The notes under the pieces: generated by a model
The model's database searches: none
What the model was told of the DNA's origin: nothing
The model's input: only the letters and a program-made list of their open reading frames with translations
Assembly: GCA_031283105.1 (NCBI GenBank)
Contig: JAITCL010000014.1
Location: 1 to 50,809, forward strand
Length of the DNA: 50,809 bases
DNA from: Treponema sp.
GTDB taxonomy: Bacteria; Spirochaetota; Spirochaetia; Treponematales; Breznakiellaceae
Direction of reading: 5' to 3'
Shown here: positions 8,587-36,505 of the stretch, piece after piece
Numbering within the stretch: position 1 is the stretch's first letter
How the letters are laid out: each line of letters begins with the position of its first letter
Made by a program: the position numbers and the translations under genes

Positions 8587-9036
8587 ATGAATCATGAAAC
8601 GATATTAAAAGTTGAATTTGAAATTGCACAAGTAGATAAACTGCTCAATGAAACAATGCCATTATTGAAATTGGCTCATATTAAAACACCTGATATGATG
8701 GTGGAAACTGCTGCGCTTGGATTGTTTTTACATTCTTTTTACAACGGTATAGAAAACATAATAAAATTTATCATTAAAGAAGAATATGGTAAATTACCAT
8801 CCGGCAATAAATGGCATAAAGAATTATTGGATTTATGCTTTATGAAGACTAATGATCATAAGGAATTATTTAGCGAAGAATTGAAAATTGTATTGGATGA
8901 TTATTTAAGTTTTAGGCACTTTATAAGAAACACATATAGTTTCAAAATAAAATGGGAACGGATGGAATATTTAATATTAAATATTGAAAAAAATTGGAAT
9001 GATATTAAAACTGAGATAATAAATTATATAAAATAA
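8587..9036 (+). CDS. HEPN-family protein (HepT-like toxin partner)
   Basis: A 149-residue all-helical protein. The segment Phe-Arg-His-Phe-Ile-Arg-Asn-Thr-Tyr at residues 109-117 matches the conserved helix of HEPN ribonuclease toxins paired with MNT antitoxins. In the form I know, the motif reads Arg-x4-His. Here Arg110 is followed by Asn115 where that His is expected, although His111 and Arg114 remain. The protein may be an inactive or altered ribonuclease, or use His111. It is co-transcribed with the nucleotidyltransferase and shares its A+T-rich composition. Family assignment is from motif and context only. Confidence 0.7.
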   Translation: MNHETILKVEFEIAQVDKLLNETMPLLKLAHIKTPDMMVETAALGLFLHSFYNGIENIIKFIIKEEYGKLPSGNKWHKELLDLCFMKTNDHKELFSEELKIVLDDYLSFRHFIRNTYSFKIKWERMEYLILNIEKNWNDIKTEIINYIK

Positions 9037-9049
9037 AAGGATGGATATT

Positions 9050-10441
9050 ATGCAAACAACGTTAAAACGTAACCGGCTGACCTTTGGTCTGGGCACTATT
9101 GGACGGGACATGATCTATTCCCTGATCAGTATGTACCTGATTTTTTACCTCACCGACATCATCAAACTTCCCACCGGCCCCATGTGGTGGGTGGCGGGCA
9201 TTATACTCGCCGCCCGCATTTTCGACGCCCTCAACGATCCGGTGATGGGCTGTATCGTTGACAATACCCATACGCGCTGGGGCAAATTCAAACCCTGGAT
9301 CACCGCAGGCGCGGCATTGACGGCGGTTTTTACCGTGCTGCTCTTTACCGATTTTAAGCTGGAAGGCGGGGCGTTTATCGGCGCGTTTGCCGTGTTTTAT
9401 CTGATGTGGGGCATAAGCTACACGGCCAATGATATTTCCTATTGGTCAATGCTCCCCGCCCTGAGCGTTGATCAAAAAGAACGCGAGAAAATCGGGGCTG
9501 TCGCCCGCATCTGCGCCAATGCCGGAATGTTTTTTGTCGTAGCCGGTATCGTGCCGCTGACCGGGCTGTTGGGGGAACGGTTTGGCAGTTTGCAAAAAGG
9601 CTGGTTTGTTTTTGCCGTTTTGGCAACCGCCGTCATGCTGGCCGGGCAGTGTGTGACGCTGTTCGGCGTACAGGAAGCGGGACTGATCGCGCAGCGCAGA
9701 CAGAGTACCCCCTTGCGGGAATTGTTACGTGTCATTTATAAAAACGACCAACTGTTTTTTATCGCCATAGCAATGTCTCTTTTTATGATCGGTTATGTGA
9801 CAACGGCAAGTTTCGGCCTGTATTTTTTCAAATACGCTTATGGCGATGAGGGAATGTATGCGATTTTTGCCCTGATACTCGGCGTGTCGCAGATTACCGC
9901 GCTGGCAGTCTTTCCGCTGTTCAGTAAACGTTTTGAGCGGGGAACGCTGTTTAGCGCGGCAATTATTCTGATTACGGCAGGTTATTTAATTTTCTTTTTT
10001 GCTCCGGTTAACACAATGATATTCATCGGCGTAGCGGGCGTTCTGATTTTCGTCGGGCAGTCCTTTGTGCAGCTTTTAATGTTAATGTTTTTAGCAGATT
10101 CGGTGGACTACGGCCACTGGAAACTCGGCAAGCGCAACGACAGCATCACTTTTTCGCTTCAGCCCCTTATCAACAAAATGGGCGGGGCAATTTCCAGCGG
10201 CGTAGTTTCGGCGGTGATTATTGTATCGGGCATTAAAGACGCTGACAGGGCCGCCGATGTAAGCGCGGAAGGGCTTTTAATGATGAAGATCGCCATGCTG
10301 GTTTTCCCCCTGCTGTGTATCGCGGTGAGTTATTTCATCTACCGGAAAAAATATATTATCGACAGCACGTTTTACGCGCGGATACTCTCTGACCTGCGCG
10401 GGCGGGGGGAACTAAAAAGTGAAGCTGACCCTCAACAGTAA
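9050..10441 (+). CDS. GPH-family sugar:cation symporter
   Basis: A membrane transporter of the glycoside-pentoside-hexuronide family (MelB-like) with about 12 transmembrane segments over 463 residues. The N-terminal half carries Ala-Arg-Ile-Phe-Asp-Ala-Leu-Asn-Asp-Pro-x-Met-Gly followed by Thr-Arg-Trp-Gly-Lys-Phe-Lys-Pro-Trp, the classic family signature; the C-half has Asp-Ser-Val-Asp-Tyr-Gly. An in-frame ATG at 9041 is possible, but AAAAGG at 9035-9040 is better spaced for the ATG at 9050. The last 23 bases overlap the glucosidase gene, so the imported substrate is probably an alpha-glucoside. Confidence 0.88.
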   Translation: MQTTLKRNRLTFGLGTIGRDMIYSLISMYLIFYLTDIIKLPTGPMWWVAGIILAARIFDALNDPVMGCIVDNTHTRWGKFKPWITAGAALTAVFTVLLFTDFKLEGGAFIGAFAVFYLMWGISYTANDISYWSMLPALSVDQKEREKIGAVARICANAGMFFVVAGIVPLTGLLGERFGSLQKGWFVFAVLATAVMLAGQCVTLFGVQEAGLIAQRRQSTPLRELLRVIYKNDQLFFIAIAMSLFMIGYVTTASFGLYFFKYAYGDEGMYAIFALILGVSQITALAVFPLFSKRFERGTLFSAAIILITAGYLIFFFAPVNTMIFIGVAGVLIFVGQSFVQLLMLMFLADSVDYGHWKLGKRNDSITFSLQPLINKMGGAISSGVVSAVIIVSGIKDADRAADVSAEGLLMMKIAMLVFPLLCIAVSYFIYRKKYIIDSTFYARILSDLRGRGELKSEADPQQ

Positions 10442-12464: not shown

Positions 12465-13751
12465 TTGGCAAAAAGCAAGGAAAAACAATATATTTATATC
12501 GTTCAATCCTCAAAAGAAATGACCAGATGCAAAATCGGCAAGACCAATAACCTTGAACGGCGGTTGAAAGAATACAACAACATGACGGGAAAGTCAAAAG
12601 ATACCCTTTACACTTATTTATTCGCTTGCGAAGTTAAAGACATGAGCGAAATGGAAAATGATTTAAAGAAAATGTTTATTACGTTACGCGAAGAAACAAG
12701 CAAGGAAATGTATTTTTATAATTCCGCATTGTTTAAGGACTACATAAAATATGTTAAATTACACCCATTGTTCGTAAAAGAAGTTATTGCCAAAGCGGAA
12801 AATAAAAACCAAATAGTAAAAATTGTAAAGAAAACAACGCCAACACTTGAAGAACGGGGAGTTACCAGAAAAGAATTATTGCAGAAGGCGCAAAAAGTAA
12901 ATAATGACGAGTTTTACACCAGATATGAAGACGTTGAAAAAGAACTTTCAAAGTATAACAAAAGTGTTTGGAAAAACAAAACCGTCTTTTGCAACTGCGA
13001 TGACCCTGTTGACGATGACGAAAGGCGTACATCTGCATTTCCTTTATATTTTATAAAAAACTTCCATGAATTTGGATTAAAAAAATTGATATGTACCCAT
13101 TACAGCGGCGGGTTAGATTTATTTAATCAAAAAGCAAAAGGGTATATATTTACCAAAGACGGTTTCAAGGAATTCAGGGAATACCCCGAAGGTTACACGG
13201 GCAGTTTCGACCACCCCCTATCATTGAAAATACTTAAGGAAGATGCAGATATTGTTTGCACTAACCCTCCGTTCTCAAGAGCAATAGAATATTGGAAAAT
13301 GATTATTGAAAGCGGTAAAAAATTCTTAATTATATCTGCTCAAACAAACCCTATAACAAAAGCATTTATCTCCTATTTCAAAGATAATCAGGTATGGGCA
13401 GGATATAATAGGGTTGATTGGTTTTTAACTCCTAAAAAAGAAATAACAAGTAATCCCTGTTTTTGGTATACTAATATTAAAATTAAAAACAGACCAAGAT
13501 TTAAACATTTAAAAATTATGCCGTTGAAAGAAATCCCCGAAAAATATAAAAGATATGATGATTCAAAAATATTGTTAGTTGATAATTGTTATATTCCAAA
13601 CGATTATAAAAAACCTTTTGCTATATCTAATCATCCAATATTTAGTGGTATATTAGAAAAGGGATATAAAATTATTGATAAAGATTGGTCTTACATAGCG
13701 TTTGTAAATGGTAAGCAATGTTTCAGAAGGGTGTTAGTTCAAAAAATATAA
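12465..13751 (+). CDS. GIY-YIG-like (T5orf172) domain fused to an EcoRI-type adenine methyltransferase
   Basis: A 428-residue protein of two parts. Residues about 8-90 resemble T5orf172/GIY-YIG nucleases: Tyr-Ile-Tyr-Ile-Val, then Cys-Lys-Ile-Gly-Lys-Thr, Glu-Arg-Arg-Leu and a conserved Glu in Glu-Met-Glu-Asn-Asp-Leu. Residues about 145-428 resemble M.EcoRI-type N6-adenine methyltransferases: Asn-Asp-Glu-Phe-Tyr-Thr near the start, Cys-Asn-Cys-Asp-Asp-Pro, and the catalytic Asn-Pro-Pro-Phe at 267-270. It starts with TTG after AAGGGG and is A+T-rich, with no separate restriction enzyme next to it. It could be a one-protein restriction-modification enzyme or a solitary methyltransferase with a targeting domain. 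Domain names are from memory of the families. Confidence 0.75.
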   Translation: MAKSKEKQYIYIVQSSKEMTRCKIGKTNNLERRLKEYNNMTGKSKDTLYTYLFACEVKDMSEMENDLKKMFITLREETSKEMYFYNSALFKDYIKYVKLHPLFVKEVIAKAENKNQIVKIVKKTTPTLEERGVTRKELLQKAQKVNNDEFYTRYEDVEKELSKYNKSVWKNKTVFCNCDDPVDDDERRTSAFPLYFIKNFHEFGLKKLICTHYSGGLDLFNQKAKGYIFTKDGFKEFREYPEGYTGSFDHPLSLKILKEDADIVCTNPPFSRAIEYWKMIIESGKKFLIISAQTNPITKAFISYFKDNQVWAGYNRVDWFLTPKKEITSNPCFWYTNIKIKNRPRFKHLKIMPLKEIPEKYKRYDDSKILLVDNCYIPNDYKKPFAISNHPIFSGILEKGYKIIDKDWSYIAFVNGKQCFRRVLVQKI

Positions 13752-33443: not shown

Positions 33444-33605
33444 AACAGAAGAAAAGCACCCTGTCGAGGGGTGTTGACGGACTAATGCAACCGGTTCCGG
33501 CGCACAATAAAATCTACTACATACAGTAAAGCTGGCTTGATTTATCAAGCCAAGCGCGCCGCGGAAAACACAGAGTTACACGGAGGAATAAAGTATTAAA
33601 TTGTC

Positions 33606-33764
33606 ATGCCTACAGCGGAGAACAAAGCCGATGTTGATAAAATTCAGGCTTTGGCACAGCAGATTATCACGCTGAAAAACAGGAAAGACGAAAAGAGCTT
33701 CAAAGACGCGGTTTTTCTGGAAGGAGAGCTTGAAAAGATTGTGGAAAGGGTGTATAGTTTGTGA
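33606..33764 (+). pseudogene. Short orphan frame, possible C-terminal relic of a restriction/methyltransferase gene
   Basis: An open frame of 52 residues starting ATG at 33606: mostly charged helix ending Leu-Glu-Lys-Ile-Val-Glu-Arg-Val-Tyr-Ser-Leu. Such an ending resembles the last helix of some N6-methyltransferase or type IIG restriction proteins (Val-Tyr-x-Leu). No Shine-Dalgarno or promoter is convincing. It stands 45 bases before the HNH gene, so the rest of a longer gene may have been lost here. The assignment is weak. Confidence 0.3.
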
Positions 33765-33808
33765 GTATCGAATTTATCGATAATAGAAAATGATTGGAGG
33801 GGCAAAAA

Positions 33809-35410
33809 ATGTCTTCAAAATTTTTATCATCATTAAGTTATGAAGAATATTGTAAATTGACTGAAAAACTGTTAAAAATTCAGAATAATCTTTGTTATAT
33901 TTGTCAAGAAATTATTGAACCTGATTTACAGGATACAAACATAGATCATATCATTCCATTGGCTAACAAAGGTAAAGATGCGGAAGACAATTTTGCAGTT
34001 GCACATGAGGGTTGCAATAAAACAAAACAAGATGCCGATCTTAATATAGCACGTATTTTATGTAGATTAAAAAATATTCAAAATAATATACTTGAAACTG
34101 AAAATAGAACAGCACGATTAAATGATATTCTAAAGAATTTCGATGGTTCACTGTATACCTTTAGATATATCATCGATAATGGTAGAATGCGATACTCATT
34201 CCCTGAACTTGGGGATACTAAAGTATATGAATCAGAGATATTTGAAGATAAGTTATCGTGTGAGAAGACTGTTTTTATTAATATTCCGATAGAATATTTG
34301 TATCATGATTCTTTGATCAATCCCAGAGGAATTAATAATAGTATATCGTTGTTGGTAAAAGAATTTTATAAAGGCAATCCTCAACTACATATATCACTCG
34401 CAAGAATAATTGATGATAAAATTAGCGTTTTTGATGGTCAGCATAAAGCAGTTGCCCAAATATTATTGGGAAACAGAAAACTACTCTTACGATTGTTTTT
34501 GAATCCAAACGTGGATAGATTAACTGAAACAAATACAAATGCGGGAAGCAGTCTACGGCAAATCGCATTCGATAAGTCAACAATGCGGCAATTGAATAAT
34601 AGATTGTATTATGAGCGGATTAAGCGGTATCAAAACGATCATGGTTTGGCAGAGGATAATTTTGATTTTTCAGAACAGCAGTTAGTTGAATATTTTAAGG
34701 GTGAAAATGTCAATATTAAAAAATACATTATTGACAGCATAAAGCATAGTATAACTTACTCTGCCGACAATAAGCTAAAAGATTTTATTGACTTTGGAGG
34801 GAAAGCGAAAGAATTGCCTTTATCATATAGCGCTTTTGAAAAAACATTTCTTTCCATTTTTATTGATTCAAAATTGATCCTTAAAACAAATATTGGTGAA
34901 AGAACCGATGGAGGGAATAACCCCCGCGAATTGGAAATTAATCAATTGATAAGACTTTTAAATATAATTGCGGATCAGATTTACATTGGTAAATTCAATC
35001 AAGAAATTGGCGTGAATAGGATTGAACAAAAAATTATAGATAAAAAAGACACAGAAATAAAAGATGAGCATTTAATTGCGTATAGAATAAGTAAGGAAGA
35101 AATTATTTATAACTGGATGTTGTATTTGGAAAAAGTTGTAGAAAATTACTTCTCAAATATGGGAAATATAACTGAAAAGAACAGAAGGTTTCAAACTGTT
35201 TTTGATGATCGACTATGGAAAAATATAGAAAATTTCATTAAAAACCTTATAAAACTGCCTCTATGGAAAGATAGAACAATGGCAGGTACTATATTTTCCG
35301 GAAAAAACAATTATGATTATTGGGACAATATATTCAAATATGGAAAGACACCCGATGGTGCTGATGTACTAATAAAACCGTTGAATTTTGTTGATATGAT
35401 AAAGGAGTAA
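33809..35410 (+). CDS. HNH endonuclease domain fused to a DGQHK (ParB/DndB-like) domain protein
   Basis: A 533-residue protein. Residues 20-75 form an HNH nuclease: Cys29-x2-Cys32, Asp46-His47-Ile-Ile-Pro, Asn61, His66, Cys69-Asn70-Lys71. Near the middle, Val-Phe-Asp-Gly-Gln-His-Lys (Asp209-Lys213) matches the Asp-Gly-Gln-His/Gln-Arg signature of DndB-like and DUF262 ParB/sulfiredoxin-like domains, which bind nucleotide or DNA. The rest (230-533) is Lys/Asn/Ile-rich and unrecognised. GGAGGGG lies just before the ATG. The gene is very A+T-rich against its surroundings. Type IV restriction proteins of the GmrSD and SspE type join a DUF262 domain to a C-terminal HNH domain; here the order is reversed. 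Role in phage defence is an inference. Confidence 0.7.
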   Translation: MSSKFLSSLSYEEYCKLTEKLLKIQNNLCYICQEIIEPDLQDTNIDHIIPLANKGKDAEDNFAVAHEGCNKTKQDADLNIARILCRLKNIQNNILETENRTARLNDILKNFDGSLYTFRYIIDNGRMRYSFPELGDTKVYESEIFEDKLSCEKTVFINIPIEYLYHDSLINPRGINNSISLLVKEFYKGNPQLHISLARIIDDKISVFDGQHKAVAQILLGNRKLLLRLFLNPNVDRLTETNTNAGSSLRQIAFDKSTMRQLNNRLYYERIKRYQNDHGLAEDNFDFSEQQLVEYFKGENVNIKKYIIDSIKHSITYSADNKLKDFIDFGGKAKELPLSYSAFEKTFLSIFIDSKLILKTNIGERTDGGNNPRELEINQLIRLLNIIADQIYIGKFNQEIGVNRIEQKIIDKKDTEIKDEHLIAYRISKEEIIYNWMLYLEKVVENYFSNMGNITEKNRRFQTVFDDRLWKNIENFIKNLIKLPLWKDRTMAGTIFSGKNNYDYWDNIFKYGKTPDGADVLIKPLNFVDMIKE

Positions 35411-35500
35411 CTTTTGATATTTCGCTACTGCGATAAAACGAAAAGTTTACGTTTTTACTGTAATACTAGAAATTATGACAAAATGTCAAAGATAAAGTAG

Positions 35501-36505
35501 ATGGATGCCATGAATCATCCACCCACCGATCTTTCCAATTTCAATTCAATCCTCTCCCTGATAAAAACCGCCAAAGACCGTATACTCAAAACCGTGAATA
35601 CCGAAATCATCGACCTGTACTGGCAGATCGGCAAGGAAGTAAGCGAAAAGGCACAGAACGGAGGCTGGGGAAAATCAGTTGTCGAGGCACTCTCTAACCA
35701 CATAGCCGCCAATTTCGGGAATATGAGAGGGTTTTCCCCTCAAAATATCTGGCGAATGAAGCAATTTTACGAAACCTACAAAGACAGCCAAATTCTCTCA
35801 GCACTGCTGAGAGAATTATCATGGACAAACAACCTTCTTGTAATGAGCCGCACTAAAACCGATGAAGAACGTCTTTTTTATATCAGGCTTGCCATTGATG
35901 AAAGATATTCATCTCGGGAACTGGATCGGCAGTTTGACGCTATGCGTTTTGAACGTGCCGCCATAAGTGAGAAAAAATCGGAAGATCTGCCGGTAAAGCG
36001 GGAAATAAAAGAACAGTTCCTTGACAGTTATGTCCTTGACTTCTTGAATTTACCTGAAAGCCACCATGAATCAGCTTTGCAAAAGGCGATAATCGCAAAT
36101 ATGAAAAAATTCCTGCTTGAAATCGGAAAGGACTTTACATTCATCGGTGAGGAGTTTCGTGTTCAGGTTGGTAATTCTGATTTTTTTATCGACCTTCTGT
36201 TTTATCATCGCGGGCTGTCCTGTCTTGCCGCGTTTGAGTTGAAAACAACCTCTTTCAAACCGGAATACATCGGGAAAATGAATTTTTATCTTGAAGCGCT
36301 TGATAGGGATCACAAAAAACCCAATGAAAACCCGAGTGTCGGGATTATTCTATGCGCTGACAAAGATGATCAGGTGGTCGAATATGCGTTACAGCGGAAT
36401 CTTTCACCCGTTCTTGTCGCCGAATATACCGCAAAACTGCCCGACAAAAAACTTCTGCAAAACAAACTTCGTGAGCTTAACGGTTTAACTGATAGTACAG
36501 AATAG
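35501..36505 (+). CDS. DUF1016 (YhcG-type) PD-(D/E)XK nuclease-like protein
   Basis: A 334-residue protein. The N-terminal part (about 15-170) is the DUF1016 helical domain: Tyr-Trp-Gln-Ile-Gly-Lys-Glu, Trp-Gly-Lys-Ser-Val-Val, Gly-Phe-Ser-Pro-Gln-Asn-Ile-Trp-Arg-Met and Leu-Ser-Trp-Thr-Asn-Asn. The C-terminal nuclease core has Asp231 (Phe-Phe-Ile-Asp-Leu-Leu-Phe-Tyr) and Glu246-Leu-Lys248. Family members are common in defence islands and are linked to restriction or mobile elements, without an agreed mechanism. The start is uncertain between 35501 and 35510, with no clear ribosome site. It sits 90 bases after the HNH gene on the same strand. Confidence 0.85.
   Translation: MDAMNHPPTDLSNFNSILSLIKTAKDRILKTVNTEIIDLYWQIGKEVSEKAQNGGWGKSVVEALSNHIAANFGNMRGFSPQNIWRMKQFYETYKDSQILSALLRELSWTNNLLVMSRTKTDEERLFYIRLAIDERYSSRELDRQFDAMRFERAAISEKKSEDLPVKREIKEQFLDSYVLDFLNLPESHHESALQKAIIANMKKFLLEIGKDFTFIGEEFRVQVGNSDFFIDLLFYHRGLSCLAAFELKTTSFKPEYIGKMNFYLEALDRDHKKPNENPSVGIILCADKDDQVVEYALQRNLSPVLVAEYTAKLPDKKLLQNKLRELNGLTDSTE

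Follow-up and report, generated by a model that had tools for sequence, protein, structure and literature searches.

Four described systems, GmrSD, BrxU, SspE and DndI, combine a ParB/sulfiredoxin (Srx)-fold NTPase marked by a DGQxR/K motif with an HNH nuclease, and occur in a defence-island context (PMC4619093, PMC10952713, PMC13251355, PMC11662687). In SspE and DndI, NTP hydrolysis at the DGQQR site is governed by its arginine and controls a C-terminal HNH nickase, and protection against phages requires hydrolysis; the NTP switch licenses or releases the nickase (PMC13251355, PMC11662687). GmrSD-type ParB-HNH enzymes are also known as auxiliaries of BREX (PMC12839542). A DGQHR-like motif also marks another ParB/Srx family, which comprises DndB and other DGQHR-domain proteins (PF14072), as well as DpdB. 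Among novel bacterial fusions, a 2025 survey (PMC12704722) reported proteins in which a ParB-CTPase fold is joined to a PF01844 HNH domain; the part of the survey describing them names the domain pair, and gives no order, context or function.

The window, that is, the whole stretch of 50,809 nucleotides analysed in this work, belongs to a draft Treponema assembly with an estimated contamination of 7.1%. It hosts an intact ORF coding for a protein, hereafter HNH-ParB, in which an HNH domain is followed by a region carrying a DGQHK motif (Table 1). The start of the ORF was assigned on the basis of the alignment and of the GGAGGGG sequence located upstream. The fusion had been recognised in a preliminary description of this DNA, and the residues named there (C29, C32, D46-H47, H66, C69-N70 and D209-G-Q-H-K213) are correct in the translation. 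The HNH part matches PF01844 above the cut-off (E=1.4e-6, 28.8 bits versus 21.4, residues 34-80), carries the catalytic DH..N..N residues of HNH endonucleases, and, as modelled, is similar to Cas9-type HNH domains (best Z 7.9). Septu was considered and discarded, as PtuB is matched weakly and by the HNH part only (E 7.6e-4), and no PtuA-like ATPase is encoded at 31.5-38.3 kb of the window.

Table 1. Features of the HNH-ParB locus (window coordinates)
Feature	Position	Strand	Basis
Type IIG restriction-modification gene, 3' remnant, ~52 codons; left island edge	33600..33761	+	
Ribosome-binding site GGAGGGG of the HNH-ParB gene	33796..33802	+	sequence
HNH-ParB/Srx protein gene, 533 aa	33809..35410	+	intact ORF; full-length homologues 57-76% identical, three phyla
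HNH nuclease domain, residues 10-92	33836..34084	+	PF01844 and structural matches
ParB/sulfiredoxin-fold domain, about residues 145-245	34241..34543	+	structural matches of the predicted model
DGQHK motif, residues 209-213, predicted nucleotide pocket	34433..34447	+	
All-helical C-terminal region, residues 260-533	34586..35407	+	model of residues 100-533
YhcG/DUF1016 PD-(D/E)XK nuclease, 334 aa; separate passenger, candidate defence gene	35501..36505	+	

The DGQHK region had been attributed to the DndB/DUF262 type. Only nuclease models of Pfam match the 533-aa protein, and neither DndB nor DUF262 is detected at E<=1. The AlphaFold model of the full protein has a pLDDT of 76, that of residues 100-533 is better (mean pLDDT 83). 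The predicted ParB/Srx part, residues 145-251 of the model, superimposes on PadC over 99 residues at 2.2 A (Z 10.2), and also matches ParB (Z 9.4) and sulfiredoxin (Z 8.3). The model thus conforms to the ParB/sulfiredoxin-like fold, which had been set beforehand as a check on the assignment, with PadC and ParB at Z 9-10. The attribution to DndB/DUF262 is to be narrowed: judging from the model, kinship extends to fold and motif, and not to profile membership. SspE, DndI and BrxU are absent among the structural matches listed. The helical C-terminus has no clear structural match, as matches confined to that part reach Z values of 3.4 at most.

The earlier analogy with GmrSD and SspE, with domain order reversed, is supported: as in GmrSD, BrxU, SspE and DndI, a predicted ParB/Srx fold is joined to an HNH nuclease. 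Differences are nonetheless marked. In the GmrSD family DUF262 (GmrSD_N, PF03235) is N-terminal, whereas HNH-ParB starts with the HNH domain and does not match PF03235; the HNH domain is of the DUF1524 type (PF07510) and C-terminal, whereas that of HNH-ParB is N-terminal, of the PF01844 type, and not matched by PF07510; the arginine of DGQQR is essential, whereas a lysine closes the DGQHK motif in 15 out of 15 aligned HNH-ParB members. As these three defining sequence features are lacking, HNH-ParB is not a member of the DUF262-DUF1524 group. The protein is moreover about 530 aa long, and has no constant PT or BREX partner. From DndB and DpdB, with which it shares a DGQHR-like motif, HNH-ParB differs both in the lack of a DndB match and in carrying an HNH domain of its own. 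A split version was observed at L061:1501-6558, where a DpdB-like DGQHR protein is followed by a separate HNH protein, and a PLD nuclease domain of the NgoFVII type is encoded nearby; the split relative scores 0.0089 against the DndB (PF14072) profile, below the cut-off. The fusions of the 2025 survey, compared by description, feature the same domain pair as HNH-ParB, and what is probably new is therefore the architecture and context of the family, not the idea of a ParB-HNH fusion. The early suggestion of an undescribed module is to be restricted accordingly.

HNH-ParB proteins share their domain order and make up a coherent family, represented in Spirochaetota, Bacteroidota, Bacillota and viral contigs. 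One genome scan retrieved six full-length homologues (57-76% identity) from Spirochaetota, Bacteroidota and Clostridium; profile searches added L010, L059, L055, L058, L087 and L088, plus the fragments L056 and L057. Three relatives (L091, L092 and L093, from IMG/VR) emerged by scanning viral contigs with a wider alignment, none with a narrow one. The HNH-then-ParB order is found in every full-length member. The stretch F208-D-G-Q-H-K213 is identical in the 15 members aligned, down to 20% identity; in the same alignment C29, H47 and N61 are invariant, D46 and N70 are found in at least 90% of the proteins. L058 is a degenerate relative, with an SGHHR motif, and VH replacing DH. Elements of the family are rare, since 296 Spirochaetota genomes contain three full-length copies, and plasmid searches with three family members revealed nothing beyond the HNH part.

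As noted at the outset, the HNH-ParB gene is far more A+T-rich than its surroundings, its G+C content being 0.300, versus 0.491 in the rest of the window. Genes of the close subfamily residing in cellular genomes feature 26-31% G+C regardless of the host flank (25-55%), and pN among the relatives compared is about 0.15-0.2 where pS is saturated. A steady low G+C content and a pN well below pS are expected of a horizontally moving, constrained gene. Besides being rare, the gene bears signs of mobility and of purifying selection, and its horizontal acquisition, as that of the small island hosting it in the window, is supported. In two Bacteroidota loci (L003:7953-9623 and L005:7954-9624) the gene is located between the inverted ends GTTAGGCAACATGG / CCACGTTRCCTAAC, and the outside sequences are unrelated. 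The common ends of the unit read GTTAGGCAAC.. and ..GTTRCCTAAC, and the 42 bp upstream are 95% identical, despite strongly diverged synonymous sites. Here the appearance is that of a self-contained mobile unit consisting of one gene. The cores of the ends (GTTAGGC .. GCCTAAC) are similar to integron attC ends; since the gene is enclosed by a single pair of ends and no array is present, an integron cassette is considered a lead only. At another locus, 110-bp direct repeats (L002:7771-7880 and 10003-10112; 94% identical) flank a solitary HNH-ParB gene.

Defence genes are found close to the HNH-ParB gene at 8 of 18 loci (the window, L003, L006, L055, L056, L057, L059 and L092), and pertain to type I, IIG and II restriction-modification (RM), DUF499, BREX-type, SIR2/ThsA-like and DruE-like systems. 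L003 hosts an N6_N4 methyltransferase (MTase), separated from the HNH-ParB gene by a protein which has no profile match and no convincing PDB match, and has been called REase-like from position only. L006 hosts a type II REase (REase_II 1e-107) and an Eco57I MTase, L055 a ThsA-like SIR2 protein (6e-26), L056 a DUF6079 (BrxC-type) protein, HsdS and AAA_13, L057 a DUF499 protein. L059 carries HSDR_N-MTase and HsdS genes. In L092 (L092:3-13605), the contig of which is classed as viral, the neighbours are a DruE-like helicase and a type IIG/DrmMI-like MTase of 1446 aa; in the window, a type IIG remnant and YhcG are adjacent. A MTase gene lies within 3 kb at 5 of the 18 loci, versus 1.7% expected per locus from the 2.8 genes per Mb counted for two MTase families in eight host genomes. 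The corresponding P, about 1e-5, is a rough one, since loci are non-random, thresholds slightly differ, one of the five genes is a remnant, and the background rests on two families. The linkage to DNA-modification or defence genes envisaged in the preliminary description was thus repeatedly found, that to DUF1016 only in the window. No defence neighbour was recognised in L001, L002, L005, L058, L087 and L088 despite adequate flanks; in L001, AbiE-type genes are 6 kb away from the HNH-ParB gene. Outside the eight loci with defence genes, most copies with enough flank are solitary among housekeeping genes, and the remaining loci have too little flank; contig ends truncate the context of L004, L010, L055 and L006. 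No dndCDE genes were recognised among the neighbours examined, part of which were scanned with profiles, and neither a partner nor a target is constant across loci.

The repeated adjacency to MTase genes, and the distance of only 33 bases separating the L059 gene from the downstream HSDR_N-MTase gene, are compatible with HNH-ParB serving the RM systems nearby as a DndB-like regulator or accessory, which would tune modification or restriction by sensing NTPs. Such a role is improbable. The partners come from unrelated systems, and many copies have none; pure regulation would not require the catalytic core of the HNH domain to be conserved; in the window, the HNH-ParB gene has stayed intact next to what is just the remnant of an RM gene. 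As relatives are either solitary or found beside many different anti-phage systems, a portable defence nuclease is the probable alternative.

In the window island, homology to type IIG genes starts at 33600, 201 bases past the stop of a TRAP-transporter gene (DctQ-DctM), and the left edge of the island is consequently placed in between. The sequence initially viewed as a possible methyltransferase tail is indeed the 3' end of a type IIG gene: positions 33600-33756 are 78% identical over 157 bp to L083:6373-6529, the terminal part of an intact gene hosted by a genome of the same family as the window. The 976-aa product includes HSDR_N, Eco57I and TaqI_C domains, and matches REase_MTase_IIG of PADLOC (1e-213). 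The tail has no plasmid match, and one close match within the order. Since the host genome has retained no methylase domain of the Eco57I type at E<=1e-8, the type IIG RM system appears to have been lost there. Comparisons with seven relatives of the genus gave no clean empty site, a different gene following the histidine-kinase gene. Other genes located elsewhere in the window encode a fusion protein with both a T5orf172/GIY-YIG and an EcoRI-type adenine methylase domain (12465-13751; A+T-rich, 32% G+C), a very A+T-rich (26% G+C) HepT-like protein (8587-9036), and an N6_N4 DNA methylase which runs off the contig end (50058-50809).

The protein encoded 90 bases downstream from HNH-ParB is, as anticipated, a full-length DUF1016 protein (YhcG_C, PF06250, 3e-56; DUF1016_N, PF17761, 1e-42), and matches PDC-S02 of PADLOC (1.1e-126 over residues 8-331). 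Location on the same strand at short distance may suggest that the two nucleases form one two-gene defence system, and L083 offers some analogy, because its related island (G1170; L083:3613-10996), a compact set including type IIG RM, GHKL ATPase, MTase-like and YhcG genes, ends with the YhcG gene after the type IIG gene. Yet, the L083 YhcG is only 36% identical to that of the window, and its island lacks HNH-ParB; YhcG adjoins HNH-ParB exclusively in the window, and is absent from the other homologue loci, a few of which have short flanks. The joint HNH and DUF1016 module initially proposed is consequently not supported, and a two-gene system is very improbable. The G+C content of yhcG (0.428) suggests separate origins for the two genes (43 versus 30%), and the content of L083 suggests that the middle part of such islands is swapped. 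Both yhcG and what remains of the type IIG gene, which fall into described groups (YhcG/DUF1016, PDC-S02, and type IIG RM, respectively) to which the HNH-ParB family does not belong, would represent independent contents of one decayed defence island.

Whether host defence or warfare among mobile elements is the primary role is the main uncertainty. Because copies reside on viral contigs, the major rival hypothesis is that HNH-ParB is primarily a nuclease of phages or mobile elements, involved in inter-element interference, homing-like spread or packaging, and that bacterial copies are passengers. The L091 relative (L091:4274-7986) is located just upstream of a small ORF followed by the terminase large subunit gene (phrog_38, 6.7e-88), with a DNA invertase nearby, and that of L093 between long reading frames of a viral contig. 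Many copies have been inserted as single genes into contexts unrelated to one another, and the L003 and L005 units share ends within different outside sequences. However, 50,697 phage records contain no relative beyond the HNH part, and the L092 gene is set within an RM/DruE-like cassette, though the contig is classed as viral. Homing hardly explains linkage to many RM types, and the gene has no constant association with an intron, an integrase or a packaging partner. The hypothesis is regarded as unlikely, though less so than the regulatory and two-gene readings.

It seems somewhat probable that HNH-ParB is a self-sufficient, mobile, NTP-regulated HNH DNA nuclease directed against invaders, which works independently of YhcG and of the type IIG remnant. 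According to this view, the N-terminal HNH domain would cut or nick DNA; the ParB/Srx-fold domain, by analogy with the described systems, would gate the HNH domain, with FDGQHK as the site where a nucleoside triphosphate is bound and probably hydrolysed; the helical C-terminus would probably mediate oligomerisation or target recognition. Though the nuclease is at the opposite end, the mechanism would resemble that of GmrSD, BrxU, SspE and DndI. NTP hydrolysis is not assured, because the catalytic arginine of DGQQR is a lysine in the HNH-ParB family. The replacement retains the charge, and nucleotide binding alone might work as a switch. The target is plausibly a feature of the invading DNA, as in type IV systems; since most copies have no adjacent modification gene, this is favoured over dependence on a dedicated self-mark.

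A broader scenario can be tentatively put forward, though it may well prove too ambitious. HNH-ParB could represent a one-gene defence unit of ~1.6 kb, widespread but rare, which passes from phylum to phylum and also to phages. In such an inverted GmrSD, a ParB/Srx switch of the Lys type (DGQHK) would gate an N-terminal HNH nuclease without partners, and the unit would serve in many RM islands as a second line against escaping DNA. As GmrSD, BrxU, SspE and DndI illustrate, HNH nucleases can be placed under the control of a ParB-like NTP switch, while what is sensed differs. A single-gene family with reversed domain order and a conserved lysine in place of arginine would test which features of this switch are essential. 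It could also add to the catalogue a defence gene which PADLOC and NCBIfam match essentially only via its generic HNH part.
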